DNA from: an uncultured Flavobacteriaceae bacterium
GTDB lineage: Bacteria; Bacteroidota; Bacteroidia; Flavobacteriales; Flavobacteriaceae
Length of the DNA: 64,000 nucleotides
Direction of reading: 5' to 3'
Assembly: GCA_947497245.1 (NCBI GenBank)
Contig: CANMFO010000001.1
Location: 124,001 to 188,000 of the forward strand
Part shown: positions 47,111 through 51,382 of the stretch, one piece after another
Position numbering within the stretch: position 1 is the first letter of the stretch
Layout: the number at the start of each line of letters is the position of its first letter
Notes under the pieces: model-generated
The model's database searches: none
What the model was told of the DNA's origin: nothing
Seen by the model: only the letters and a program-made list of their open reading frames with translations
Program-made: the position numbers and the translations under genes

Positions 47111-48352
47111 TCAGGACAAGGCCGCATCCATCTGCTCGATCTTTCGCAATACCAGTTGCTTTTCGCTTTCAGTGGAGACCAACTGCAAAGCTAGCTGCAG
47201 GTGCTGTCTCTGCTTTTTGGTGTCCATGTCCAAATAAAGTTCCGCCATGAGCAAATGGTACAAATGGTTGTCCTTAAGATCGATTTTTAGAGCTTCTTGG
47301 ATGGCTACTTCCTTGCCATTGGCCTTGGACAGCGCATAGGTGCGGTTCAAAGCGATAACGGGCGAATACTTGATCTGCAGCAATTGGTTGTACAATTGCA
47401 GAATCTGTTCCCATTTTTCATTCGAATCGGTATTCCTGGTGTGGTGATAGGCAATGATGGCCTCTAGATGATACTTTGTGATTTTTCCGCCCCGACTGGA
47501 CCGGCCGAGATATTCCTCTCCTTTTTGGATGAGTTCCCGATCCCAGTTCGCTCGATTCTGTTCGGCATATAGAATTTGTTCTCCTTGAGCGTTGGTACGC
47601 GCCTCAAATCGGGAAGCGTGAAAACAAAAGAGCGCCATCAGGGCATTCGCCTCAGGGGCATTGGTAACCGTATTTCCCAAAACCAGATAGGTAAGACGCA
47701 TGGCCTCGACACAGAGCTCTTTTCGGACCTTCTTTTCGGAGACGGTGGTATAGTACCCTTCACTGAAAAGCAGGTACAGGACCGAGAGTACATTTCCTAG
47801 CCGGTTTTCAAGTTCCTTTGCCGGCGGTAGGGTCAGATCTATTTTCTGCTCACGCATGCGTTCCTTGGCCCGGTGCAGTCTTTTGTTAATGGTTTCCTTA
47901 TTGCTCAAGAAGGCCTTGGCAATTTCGGCCACCCCAAAACCGCATAGAATGCGCAGGGCCAGGGCAATCTGTGCTTCGGGCGATATCACCGGATTGCATA
48001 CTGCGAACAGCATCCTTAGTTGGCTGTCCTGGATATTGTGCTCGGACAGATCGACCTCCAAATCCTCCGAAGCTCCTATCCCATGCTCCAGTTCTGGCTT
48101 TACTTTTTGTTGGAACACCTGATCCCGTTTAAAACCATCACGGGCCTTGTTTTTCGCTACTTGGTAGAGCCAGGCAGTCGGATTTTTAGGTGTCCCCTTT
48201 AACCCCCAGGTCTGGGTGGCGATCAAAAAAGTCTCGCTGGCGATGTCCTCGGCCATTTGAATATTGCTAAGACCGAAGGTCTTGCACAACACGGAGACAA
48301 TCTTGCTGTATTCCGTTCGGAAGAGGTGCGGTATGAGTTCTGGGTGGTTCAC
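47111..48352 (-). CDS. ECF RNA polymerase sigma factor, ECF42-like (SigJ-type with long C-terminal domain)
   Basis: From the GTG at 48352 the protein has 413 residues; no ATG is near, so the start is provisional. Sigma-2/4 regions at about 1-170 (FRTEYSKIVSVLCKTFGL, AEDIASETFLIATQTWG, then FGVAEIAKAFLSNKETINKR). A long helical C-terminal extension with TPR-like 'LYHLLMAELYLDMD' is typical of the ECF42 group. These factors are found next to a DGPF/YCII protein, and one is directly upstream here (gap 75 bases). Confidence 0.88.
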   Translation of the reverse strand: MNHPELIPHLFRTEYSKIVSVLCKTFGLSNIQMAEDIASETFLIATQTWGLKGTPKNPTAWLYQVAKNKARDGFKRDQVFQQKVKPELEHGIGASEDLEVDLSEHNIQDSQLRMLFAVCNPVISPEAQIALALRILCGFGVAEIAKAFLSNKETINKRLHRAKERMREQKIDLTLPPAKELENRLGNVLSVLYLLFSEGYYTTVSEKKVRKELCVEAMRLTYLVLGNTVTNAPEANALMALFCFHASRFEARTNAQGEQILYAEQNRANWDRELIQKGEEYLGRSSRGGKITKYHLEAIIAYHHTRNTDSNEKWEQILQLYNQLLQIKYSPVIALNRTYALSKANGKEVAIQEALKIDLKDNHLYHLLMAELYLDMDTKKQRQHLQLALQLVSTESEKQLVLRKIEQMDAALS

Positions 48353-48427
48353 GGGCGGGCGGTCAAAATAATCTCTAAAGAAAACAAGGCCAGCCCGGGC
48401 ACCCGGACTGACCGAGGTACACAAGGG

Positions 48428-48775
48428 TTATTGGTCGAAAACCATTACGTCCCTGACCTCCACCTTTCCACCATCAATGGAAAGAATGGGACAGCCTTCG
48501 GATAATTGTACCGCTTCCTCAAGGGTATCGGCTTTTACGATGATGTATCCGCCCACAATTTCCTTCAATTCGGCATAGGGACCATCGGTCACCACACCAT
48601 CGGCATGCACCGTCTTTCCCTGGGTACCAAGGGCATTGGTACCCACAAATTTCCCCTGCGCGGCAATTCCTCCGATCCAGTCTTGCCAAATTTTCATGGT
48701 AGCCTGCATTTCTTCGGGGGTAGGTGCGGTGTTGTCGGCCTTCTCTGTTCTGAAAAGCATCATAAATTCTTTCAT
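48428..48775 (-). CDS. YCII-related (DGPF-domain) protein
   Basis: 115 residues with the DGPF-like motif (DGPYAELKEIVGGYIIV), preceded by ALGTQGKTVHADGVV. Small YCII/DGPF domains are thought to be signalling or enzymatic partners of ECF42 factors. The gene is directly before the ECF42 gene on the same strand, the known pairing. Confidence 0.9.
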   Translation of the reverse strand: MKEFMMLFRTEKADNTAPTPEEMQATMKIWQDWIGGIAAQGKFVGTNALGTQGKTVHADGVVTDGPYAELKEIVGGYIIVKADTLEEAVQLSEGCPILSIDGGKVEVRDVMVFDQ

Positions 48776-48846: not shown

Positions 48847-49257
48847 TTATTGATAAAACTTTTCAGCATCCACGACCAGTGTGGTCAGTTCAACGGTATG
48901 CCCATCTGGGTCCTTGGTGTACACCGATCGGAAATAGTGATGGTCCTGTTCGGTAAAAGTAAGGCCCAAACGGGTATATTTGGCCTTTGCCTTTTCAAAA
49001 TTCCCTATGCTTAGGTGAAAAGCAAAATGATCGAGTTTTACATTTTTAGAGCCCTGGGGAAGCTCAGGATGTTCCTTGTTCGCTGGGAATAAGGCGATAC
49101 CAGATTTTCCGGCCAAAAGAAAGATGGGAAAATCGCCCCATTCTTCCAGTTGATACTTTTTTAAGCCCAGCACTTGCCGGTACCACTTTTCGGATACTTT
49201 TAGATCCTTGACCCGCAACGCGACATGGTCCAAAAAATCAATTTCAAAAGCGTCCAT
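48847..49257 (-). CDS. Glyoxalase/VOC-family protein
   Basis: 136 residues of the vicinal-oxygen-chelate fold: FLDHVALRVKDLKVSEKWY, then LDHFAFHLS, then a C-terminal DPDGHTVELTT with metal-ligand-like His and Glu. Candidates are dioxygenases or glyoxalase-like isomerases; substrate unknown. It is 71 bases upstream of the YCII gene on the same strand and may form one unit with it. Confidence 0.88.
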   Translation of the reverse strand: MDAFEIDFLDHVALRVKDLKVSEKWYRQVLGLKKYQLEEWGDFPIFLLAGKSGIALFPANKEHPELPQGSKNVKLDHFAFHLSIGNFEKAKAKYTRLGLTFTEQDHHYFRSVYTKDPDGHTVELTTLVVDAEKFYQ

Positions 49258-49395: not shown

Positions 49396-49429
49396 AAAGG
49401 GATGCTCCTGATTGGGGTGCATCCCTTTT
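49396..49429 (-). terminator. Terminator downstream of the microprotein array
   Basis: A 10-bp stem (AAAGGGATGC at 49396-49405, GCATCCCTTT at 49419-49428) with a 13-base loop. It lies 22 bases after the last microprotein stop on the minus strand. The following minus-strand sequence is only moderately T-rich. Confidence 0.65.
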
Positions 49430-49450: not shown

Positions 49451-49564
49451 CTATCGAAGGTACTGTGTCGGTGCCGACCAGCGTATCCGCTTGCTGTCCT
49501 GGAAATTGGAACGGAAGGCGAACCTTCTGGATTCTGTTTGTGTTTGAACGGTAAATGTTTTCAT
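49451..49564 (-). CDS. Microprotein C of a tandem array (37 aa)
   Basis: ATG at 49564, stop at 49451; 37 residues, basic (MKTFTVQTQTESRRFAFR..., ending WSAPTQYLR). It has exactly the length of copies A and B, and aligns without gaps at 13 of 37 positions, including MK, T8, TES (10-12), S19, F21, SKR (24-26), W29 and a terminal Arg. Aromatics are swapped at 17 and 35. The spacing from copy B (157 bases between starts) is like that between A and B (152). A frame beginning further upstream, 31 codons longer, overlaps copy B and is not preferred. No signal peptide. Confidence 0.6.
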   Translation of the reverse strand: MKTFTVQTQTESRRFAFRSNFQDSKRIRWSAPTQYLR

Positions 49565-49607
49565 GACCGGGTTTTTTAGAGGATTGATGTGCGCTTTCTG
49601 ACCGTGA

Positions 49608-49721
49608 TCAACGGTTGAAGTTCCTGTACTGGGCCCACTGTGCCCTTTTGCTCCCACTGAAGGTGGAAAAGTACTGTCCTGTTTTCGATTCTGTCGCTGT
49701 CTTAGTGCTTGTTGCTTTCAT
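49608..49721 (-). CDS. Microprotein B of a tandem array (37 aa)
   Basis: ATG at 49721, stop TGA at 49608. The product begins MKATSTKTATESKTGQYF and ends QYRNFNR. It differs from copy A at one residue (Ser5 versus Ile5). At the base level there are three differences over 114 bases, two of them silent. The bases before the ATG (TAAAAAATAGAAATT) are identical to those before copy A, so it is probably expressed in the same way. Net charge is positive, with no Cys and no predicted membrane helix. Confidence 0.65.
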   Translation of the reverse strand: MKATSTKTATESKTGQYFSTFSGSKRAQWAQYRNFNR

Positions 49722-49759
49722 AATTTCTATTTTTTAAGGGTTTTGTTGTTTTGTTCGGA

Positions 49760-49873
49760 TCAACGGTTGAAGTTCCTGTACTGGGCCCACTGTGCCCTTT
49801 TGCTCCCGCTGAAGGTGGAAAAGTACTGTCCTGTTTTCGATTCTGTCGCTGTCTTAGTGATCGTTGCTTTCAT
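49760..49873 (-). CDS. Microprotein A of a tandem array (37 aa)
   Basis: ATG at 49873, stop TGA at 49760; first of the three in transcription order. It begins MKATITKTATESKTGQYF, followed by STFSGSKRAQW, and ends NFNR: basic, rich in Thr/Ser and Lys/Arg, with aromatic residues at 17, 18, 29, 32 and 35. The conserved leader TAAAAAATAGAAATT ends directly before the ATG. I do not recognise the family. A small nucleic-acid- or ribosome-binding protein, an antimicrobial peptide and a RiPP precursor are all conceivable; nothing in the sequence selects one. Confidence 0.65.
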   Translation of the reverse strand: MKATITKTATESKTGQYFSTFSGSKRAQWAQYRNFNR

Positions 49874-50230
49874 AATTTCTATTTTTTAGTGTTGTTTTAA
49901 ATTGTTTTATACCTAGTAGACGACGAATGAATCTTTTTGTTACAGTACTATGTATAAAAAGGTACTATTTTATATATAATTTAACATATGCTAAGAACGT
50001 AATCTCTACAGATGACTGATAATCAATGTTGTACATATTTTTATTTTTAATCATATTCACAGTAAAGACTATGACTTTCACTAAAAGTTACAGCGGCGGG
50101 TCATTTTTTACCACCATTTTTAGCATGGGCAAGGGTTGTGCCATGGACAGGTCGGCACGAACCGGGTTTTCAAAGTGCGACCGGAGGCGATCAAATTTCA
50201 AAATAGGGTAGTGGCAAACTTTTCCCTGAA
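49874..50230. other. AT-rich region upstream of the microprotein array and of the cyclase
   Basis: 357 bases that must hold the promoter of the minus-strand array and of the plus-strand cyclase gene. Around 49945-49965 the AT-rich tract carries a small inverted repeat (AGTAC ... GTACT). No exact TAnnTTTG box in correct orientation was found for either side, and no further copy of the microprotein. Confidence 0.5.
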
Positions 50231-51382
50231 ATGGGATATCGCCTGGAAAACATTTTGACGGGGATATTAATTGCCTATTTTTATGGAATGGTGTTACACC
50301 CAAAATATGCCAAGCAGTTAAGACAGGCATTTGCATTTGGTTTGATATGGATGGCATTCGGACTGCTCTATGTATTTCTGGAATATGGACTCCTGGGGGG
50401 AGTCACCGAATATCCCAGTACCGGGAACAGGTACGATTTTACAAACGCCCTGGTCTTTATCGGCATAGGAAGCTTTTTTGCCGGAATGACCCAGGGCTGG
50501 ATAGAAATATCCTGGCTCGGAAAACGTTTTTCGGGTCATCCGTTCTGGAAAAAGATTTTGTTCAAAAGCATTTTCTACCTTTCCTTTATTATTTTGATAT
50601 TGGTGGTGCTGAGCATTATAAGCAATGCACAGCTTTATGGCCGTAACATTTTCGATCCCGTTATCTTAAATAGTATCACGGAGTTTATACAAAATTTTGC
50701 TTTTTGGAGCGTTGTTTTATATTCCGCGGTTGTTTTGGATATTTCCCTTTTTTATGCTGAAATGCGACATTACTTGGGTGGTGGGGTGCTTTACAATTAT
50801 TCGTTGGGCAAATACCATCGACCTAGACAGGAGACTAGAATATTCATGTTCCTTGACATGAAATCATCTACCTCGATCGCAGAGCGAATCGGACACAGGA
50901 AATACTTCGATCTTTTAAAAGCATATTATGCCGATATGACCGATGCTATTTTAGAGACTTCGGGGGAAATCTATCAATACGTCGGAGATGAAATTGTGGT
51001 GACCTGGCCCGAAAAATTCGGGATTTACAAAAACAACTGCATTCAATGTCTGGCGCTCATATCAGAAGTTTTTGAGCAGAAGCAGGATTCCTATCTACAG
51101 CGGTTCGGTTTGGTTCCGGAGTTTAAGGCCGGTTATCACATTGGGGAGGTGACCATTGGTGAGATCGGCATTATTAAGAAGGATATTATCTACACTGGGG
51201 ATGTTCTGAACACCACCGCCCGGATTCAGGCAGAGTGCAACACCTACGGGGCAAAGGCCCTCATTTCAGGAAAACTACTGGAGGAACTTCAAAAAGAGGA
51301 TCCCATTACCTTTACCCAAATCGGAACGCTTACGCTTCGGGGAAAAACGGAAGCGATCCAATTGTACAGCGTGGTTTTTTAG
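50231..51382 (+). CDS. Membrane-bound class III nucleotide cyclase
   Basis: 383 residues with about six transmembrane helices in residues 5-175 and a cyclase domain at about 200-370 (FMFLDMKSSTSIAERIG, YQYVGDEIVVTW, GYHIGEVTIGEIG, DVLNTTARIQ). The metal Asp residues are present, and the substrate-side Asp is kept in KKDIIYTGD. The usual Lys before the GD motif is Gln (IYQYVGDE), so base preference or activity is uncertain. It ends 4 bases inside the convergent gapA gene. Confidence 0.85.
   Translation: MGYRLENILTGILIAYFYGMVLHPKYAKQLRQAFAFGLIWMAFGLLYVFLEYGLLGGVTEYPSTGNRYDFTNALVFIGIGSFFAGMTQGWIEISWLGKRFSGHPFWKKILFKSIFYLSFIILILVVLSIISNAQLYGRNIFDPVILNSITEFIQNFAFWSVVLYSAVVLDISLFYAEMRHYLGGGVLYNYSLGKYHRPRQETRIFMFLDMKSSTSIAERIGHRKYFDLLKAYYADMTDAILETSGEIYQYVGDEIVVTWPEKFGIYKNNCIQCLALISEVFEQKQDSYLQRFGLVPEFKAGYHIGEVTIGEIGIIKKDIIYTGDVLNTTARIQAECNTYGAKALISGKLLEELQKEDPITFTQIGTLTLRGKTEAIQLYSVVF

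Follow-up and report, generated by a model that had tools for sequence, protein, structure and literature searches.

Are three short open reading frames of equal length on the minus strand of a flavobacterial contig genuine protein genes, and if so, what transcribes them and what do their products do? The question arises at positions 49451–49873 of the window, as we call the whole 64,000-nt stretch of DNA analysed here. The initial annotation, made from the sequence alone, had read this locus as a tandem array of 37-residue microprotein genes under selection, with a leader shared by two copies and a hairpin at the array's end, and had marked its thoughts on function as speculation.

Tandem genes for 37-residue proteins

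The array consists of copy A (49760–49873), which comes first, the near-identical copy B (49608–49721) and, at the 3′ end, a divergent paralogue, copy C (49451–49564), all on the minus strand and all unannotated. Each copy is supported by its translation: A and B additionally by homologues and codon-level selection, B also by a direct repeat, and C by the layout of homologous loci. Start-to-start spacings are 152 and 157 bases. A and B lie inside a 131-nt direct repeat of 98% identity and differ in their coding sequences by two synonymous changes and one non-synonymous change, while A and C align without gaps at 35% identity (13 of 37 residues). The three peptides are basic (pI 10.6–11.7, charge about +5.5) and hydrophilic (GRAVY −1.08 to −1.22), with no signal sequence detected by eye. 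A rho-independent terminator ends the array on the minus strand (49396–49428), with 13-nt arms (49396–49408 and 49416–49428) that are 92% complementary and a short T-rich run after the hairpin, as expected of an ordinary terminator; similar hairpins were seen by eye 3′ of the last copy in many related arrays. No Rfam family matched the array (the window and four loci were scanned), A and C had no match in Pfam, NCBIfam, PHROGs or PADLOC, and B had none in Pfam or NCBIfam.

Most of the initial annotation held up at this level. The three minus-strand ORFs and their spacings were confirmed, as were the recent duplication of A and B with two of three coding differences silent, the divergence of C at unchanged length, the closing hairpin, and the basic character and absence of a signal (pI and charge were computed; the signal was again judged by eye). 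The leader claimed to be shared by A and B before the ATG is in part an A-rich start region, which is a common feature in Bacteroidota. Missed altogether were the promoter 5′ of A, a second array in the same genome and a small ORF that leads this second array.

That second array lies on the same contig, 544 kb away. Among 60 relatives, 12 carry 37-mer matches; these comprise every one of the 10 genus members and a single genome from each of two other genera. A profile search matched 69 of 397 sampled Flavobacteriaceae genomes at E ≤ 0.01, 56 of them below 1e-4 (strong hits), and a scan of named genomes gave 79 loci, including Maribacter, Arenibacter, Pricia, Ulvibacterium, Pelagihabitans, Muriicola, Croceitalea, Croceivirga, Euzebyella and Zeaxanthinibacter. 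Since homologues of equal length are found repeatedly across a bacterial family, the array is more than a chance occurrence, and we have little doubt that the 37-mers are a real protein family. The genes were not named in the titles and abstract openings on small microbiome proteins and tandem small proteins that we searched in the open-access literature.

For comparison of layouts we used 87 arrays, built from the 79 named loci and a few others. The set includes 12 single genes, some arrays truncated at contig ends and some from closely related genomes; family members with E > 1e-6 are excluded. The usual layout is a run of A copies and then one divergent C copy: 63 of the 75 arrays with at least two copies end in a C-type copy, and in 59 of the 75 a single C-type copy is present, confined to the 3′ end. 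Of 167 A-type copies, 166 have 37 residues; C-type lengths are more variable. Gaps between copies are mostly 20–70 nt and A-rich. Many arrays have a first gap of about 135 nt, with an apparent second promoter of housekeeping type (by eye). We found no signal of homogenisation within arrays, the best within-array identity being 0.888 versus 0.896 to other loci (57 arrays). Two sequence features of the untranslated parts were also observed. In L080, L084, L108, L119 and others, the long first gap contains a CAATTGgGT/CAACTcgGT-like repeat pair beside the housekeeping-like promoter (by eye), which may be a response-regulator site. At the 3′ ends, terminator stems vary between loci and a loop like CTTCATCA recurs in many, leaving the possibility that it is more than a terminator.

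Selection on these genes acts at the protein level. Across 169 unique A-type genes, pS is 0.605 and pN 0.141 (pN/pS 0.23), the median omega of countable pairs is 0.135, and diversity at the three codon positions is 0.14, 0.16 and 0.41. For C-type genes, pS is 0.703 and pN 0.431 (pN/pS 0.61), a calculation that took in only 34 copies, all of 37 residues. RNAalifold predicted no common RNA structure in 32 A ORFs; the untranslated parts were not folded as an alignment. The initial annotation had claimed selection on the peptide and not just on the DNA, to be refuted by a lack of conserved-length homologues, by frame disruption in relatives or by conservation of RNA structure alone. Checked as far as possible, none of these conditions refuted the claim, which is supported: homologous ORFs of conserved length were found across the family, and an internal stop was seen in at least one homologue match (G377). 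Conservation of the 37-mer is among its highest in the C-terminal half, where the conserved segment SKR..W lies. An AlphaFold2 model of A predicts a helix at residues 25–36, but the model is poor (pLDDT 64, pTM 0.26); two hits from a PDB sequence search (E 0.11 and 0.17) were taken as chance.

The genes around the array differ in how they relate to it. Divergent from the array lies a gene for an adenylate/guanylate cyclase domain protein (50231–51382), relatives of which are found near 11 of the 87 arrays, window included, so this synteny looks old. Downstream, a glyoxalase-fold protein (48847–49257) matches Fos thiol transferases, all far below curated cut-offs, and for that reason no resistance call is justified. 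An ECF sigma factor with a DUF6596 region (47111–48775) adjoins a YCII-domain gene, which together we take to be the ECF42 group arrangement. We rejected a link of the array to these downstream glyoxalase, YCII and ECF42-like genes and treat them as neighbours, because only 5 of 87 arrays, window included, have a YCII relative within three ORFs on either side.

The array promoter and the small proteins behind it

Upstream of A, on the minus strand at 49917–49944, lies a promoter motif with a −35 box TGTAAC (49944–49939), a 16-nt spacer and a −10 box CGTCTA (49922–49917), the same motif that precedes an ECF sigma gene of this genome. TGTAAC-N16-CGTC has the form of an ECF promoter. We consider it very probable that the array promoter is of this type, a judgement from motif conservation, as the transcription start was not measured. 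Just upstream of the −35 box, a conserved element (49944–49971, minus strand) with inverted arms AGTAC (49966–49962) and GTACT (49948–49944), 13 nt apart, emerged from the consensus over 66 upstream regions and from direct reading, and could be a regulator site.

The motif TGTAAC-N16-CGTC occurs within 300 bases upstream in 66 of the 87 arrays or single genes. With the fuller −10 box CGTC[TG][AT] and spacers of 14–18 permitted, 62 matched, all with a spacer of 16. The promoter usually lies at about −70 to −90; one lies at −106, and those of arrays led by the small protein D, described below, at about −183 to −241. The consensus preceding array promoters is AtAGTACCTTTTtat.CATAGTACTG. The strict motif is absent in 21 of 87, some of which are cut by contig ends or carry one-base variants. 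At least ten arrays (Maribacter, Pseudozobellia, Croceitalea and Arenibacter), located at another syntenic site, have instead a housekeeping-like TTTG promoter next to an AraC-like gene of divergent orientation (promoter and gene judged by eye). The ECF link therefore does not extend to all arrays. At a third syntenic site, which lacks the strict ECF motif (L086, L093, L096, L101, L105, L115, L124, L125, L132, L142 and L152), an AraC-like gene lies close and ankyrin-like lipoprotein and acyltransferase-like genes follow downstream (named by eye).

TGTAAC-N16-CGTCTW is present at 8 sites in the window's own genome, against 2 for the reversed control. The arrays account for two of these sites and a single TonB-receptor-like gene for another two; one lies 46 bases upstream of the ECF sigma gene, and the last three precede other genes. 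Three of the 8 sites (L162, L163 and L164) precede genes without an evident envelope link. A stringent motif, TGTAACAAA-N13-CGTCTW, gives 27 sites in the 10 genomes of the genus (reversed control, 1), with 14 before arrays, 9 before sigma genes and 4 before others, none of these 4 being sigma genes; a tenth sigma gene has a variant motif upstream. The near-exclusive sharing of the promoter with the sigma gene within the genus is shown, as are the conserved array layout and the conserved ECF-type promoter. Further motif sites precede DUF4870-like, PMP3-like and CAAX-protease-like proteins (by eye) that are seemingly envelope-related, as is the TonB-receptor-like protein. Of 20 motif sites chosen in other genera (not all such sites), 10 precede an ABC-type ATPase gene (by eye). 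As a separate observation, small secreted-looking proteins at L163:1569–1961 and L219, mutually alike by eye, lie behind the ECF motif in two genomes; the former has no Pfam or NCBIfam match.

The small ORF that leads the second array encodes D, a protein of about 39 residues (RPKIYFRIGFGWNTDRWYDQK) and the third small family found here (example locus, L033:3502–3621). It lies before the first A copy in that array and in 18 others, sits inside the array in two (L086 and L097), and was found in 17 of 397 genomes, always beside an A-type gene. Its genes show pS of 0.623 and pN of 0.226 (14 genes). The predicted structure is a β-hairpin plus helix (pLDDT 76), for which no PDB structural match with E < 5 was found, and D has no match in Pfam, NCBIfam, PHROGs or PADLOC. 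Homology between D and the 37-mer is unproven, profile comparison having given nothing.

A genus without the 37-mer has, behind one motif site, a basic 28-residue peptide ending WNSKRRYR (consensus MRTLNNNQLT.....TKS..WN.KRRYR; loci L278–L307). Of the 397 family genomes, 126 matched the 28-mer at E ≤ 0.1 and 118 of these at E < 0.01; across the class, it matched in 2 of 207 genomes, partially and weakly. Some genomes carry it in tandem. It was recovered by pattern in 27 of 30 fetched loci, 10 of the 27 having at least two copies, and a strict promoter lies within 260 bases in 22 of the 27. This promoter shares the CATAGTACTG extension with those of the arrays (26 sites). The 28-mer genes show pS of 0.528 and pN of 0.217 (38 genes), and Pfam, PHROGs and PADLOC returned no match. 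Profile comparison between 37-mer and 28-mer gave E and P values of 0.009 and a probability of 4.5, which leaves homology unproven; the two may or may not be homologous.

The GFO_1088/PG0214 sigma factor

The sigma factor of this genome belongs to NF058625, the GFO_1088/PG0214 family, scoring 232.8 bits against a curated cut-off of 130. Two genes on lies a DUF4252/GFO_1090 gene (PF14060, E 1e-30; NF058626, 241.4 bits), and between them, in an anti-sigma factor's place, is a gene for a protein without a Pfam match. The order of sigma, hypothetical protein and DUF4252 is also found in Porphyromonas gingivalis at PG_0214–0216 and PG_0985–0987 in expression tables (PMC10101095), the latter also in PMC10434189. 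Among the 30 best-scoring sigma genes of relatives, 26 have TGTAAC-N16-CGTC upstream; one of the 30 loci (L195) was not recognised by the script and was scored as a miss.

The sigma family is present in 344 of the 397 sampled Flavobacteriaceae genomes. A strong hit to the 37-mer or the 28-mer occurs in 172 of the 397 (about 43%), two genomes having both, and the sigma is present in all 172 of these versus 172 of the 225 others (Fisher 5e-15, uncorrected for kinship or genome size). This comparison set aside 13 genomes with A-type hits of E > 1e-4 and 8 with 28-mer hits of E > 0.01; with weak-hit genomes restored, 4 of 186 lack the sigma, all four being weak hits. The sigma-less genomes comprise 20 that were listed and 33 deduced as missing from the sigma-positive list. 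Both phylogeny and genome size confound the co-occurrence; 16 of the 20 listed are 2.2 Mb or smaller.

The sigma's own promoter lacks the CATAGTACTG extension carried by the array promoters, so another ECF paralogue could read the arrays; at E ≤ 0.001, the sigma family has 47 matching stretches in this genome. We infer that the GFO_1088-type sigma is the likely reader of the array promoter, with no expression data seen. In the open-access literature searched, we found neither a described target set for the GFO_1088/PG0214 sigma nor any link of it to small-protein arrays.

Proposed function, rival readings and known systems

On balance, and with moderate confidence, we favour the reading that the arrays encode small basic effectors of an envelope-type stress regulon under the GFO_1088/PG0214 sigma. 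In this view, envelope-type stress would free the sigma, which would transcribe its own gene and the arrays, the window's array being a single transcription unit of promoter, A, B, C and terminator, and the repetition of genes would raise the amount of small, soluble, basic protein. The 37-mers would stay in the cytoplasm and act through the C-terminal SKR..W segment, predicted to be a short aromatic and basic helix. The type of stress, the amount made and the cytoplasmic location are inferred. The partner would be anionic and might be RNA, the ribosome or the inner membrane (its inner leaflet); this is a guess that we would back no more readily than its opposite.

Three other readings deserve weighing. 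The units could be genes for regulatory RNAs, an sRNA arm controlled by the sigma in which the ORFs are incidental or secondary. In favour of this, a short unit bounded by an ECF promoter and a terminator is reminiscent of an sRNA gene, terminator hairpins with similar loops recur (by eye), and Rfp11, a ‘putative regulatory RNA’ of F. psychrophilum, is transcribed from an ECF-type promoter of the SM6 kind (PMC9723704). Against it stand the codon-level purifying selection, the fixed length and the lack of a consensus structure in the A ORF, with the caveat on untranslated parts given above, and we reject it as the main reading, judging it unlikely. It is likewise unlikely that the peptides are toxins or precursors of antimicrobial or modified peptides. 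Tandem, near-identical small ORFs are indeed known in RiPP precursor sets and Ldr-type toxins. However, the peptides are hydrophilic without a signal by eye, the conserved part is the C-terminus and not a variable core, the 16 largest neighbour clusters of the 87 arrays differ by site with no maturase recognised (by eye only), and PADLOC and PHROGs gave no match. The 37-mers do not meet the RiPP precursor criterion of a conserved leader and variable core, nor, at their GRAVY of −1.08 to −1.22, that of type I toxins (Ldr/Hok), a hydrophobic membrane-spanning peptide. Among the functional guesses of the initial annotation, precursor and antimicrobial peptides therefore fit poorly, given the absence of a signal, the conserved C-terminus and the lack of a recognised maturase nearby, and nucleic-acid binding remains possible.

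The remaining alternative keeps the stress proteins and changes their reader, which would be either a different ECF paralogue or, for the most part, the housekeeping sigma assisted by an AGTACT-binding activator. This is possible. The AGTACT extension is missing from the sigma's own promoter, and many arrays have a housekeeping-like second promoter in their spacer of roughly 135 nt, at least ten having such a promoter alone (by eye). Against it, no other sigma gene is found among the 27 motif sites of the genus, and the GFO_1088-type sigma co-occurs completely with strong peptide hits.

If the favoured reading, stress effectors under the GFO_1088/PG0214 sigma, is right, the arrays give this sigma concrete, testable outputs. 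They also expose protein families too small for annotation to retain as a rule. Purifying selection on proteins of 28–39 residues, their tandem copies and their swapping between genera at a common promoter suggest that a major marine bacterial group has an effector mechanism not yet described. A bolder version holds that Flavobacteriaceae meet envelope stress with floods of tiny basic proteins made from repeated genes and not mainly with regulatory RNAs. At least two unannotated families would take part, one being the 37-mer together with its C paralogue and D, the other the 28-mer; for the most part a genus would have one in place of the other behind a single conserved promoter. Sigma-E of enterobacteria answers envelope stress mainly with regulatory RNAs. 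We think this version rather more apt to fail than to stand; if true, tiny proteins would be the main effectors of a conserved sigma factor.

Sigma-controlled small proteins are already known; to our knowledge, none occur in tandem arrays that seem to be the principal output of one sigma across a bacterial family. Open-access searches on the sigma family, on flavobacterial ECF regulons and small proteins, and on tandem small proteins returned no title or abstract opening describing the arrays. The SM6 promoter set of Flavobacterium psychrophilum is likewise ECF-type with a CGT box at −10 (PMC9723704). It contains an ABC-type ATPase, the kind of gene also seen behind motif sites in other genera, an ECF sigma/anti-sigma pair and the small transcript Rfp11, and its promoters are strongly induced at low nutrients in that species (PMC9723704). 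The term ‘small protein’ is absent from the main text of that paper (PMC9723704). Rfp11 might be a small-protein transcript, which is a lead only, as neither its 28-mer content nor the sigma family of SM6 is established.

Ldr and similar enterobacterial loci resemble the arrays in their tandem, near-identical ORFs of about 35 residues, but Ldr peptides are hydrophobic toxins with antisense RNAs, whereas the 37-mers are hydrophilic and basic. Sra and Thx, ribosome-bound proteins of stress or stationary phase, are tiny, basic and cytoplasmic, as is proposed for the 37-mers; unlike these, they are single copy, and they were compared only via family libraries. There is also a correspondence with the GFO_1088/PG0214 sigma and DUF4252 system itself (NF058625 and NF058626): the sigma of this genome passes the family cut-off and has its DUF4252 partner, and its promoter matches that of the arrays.
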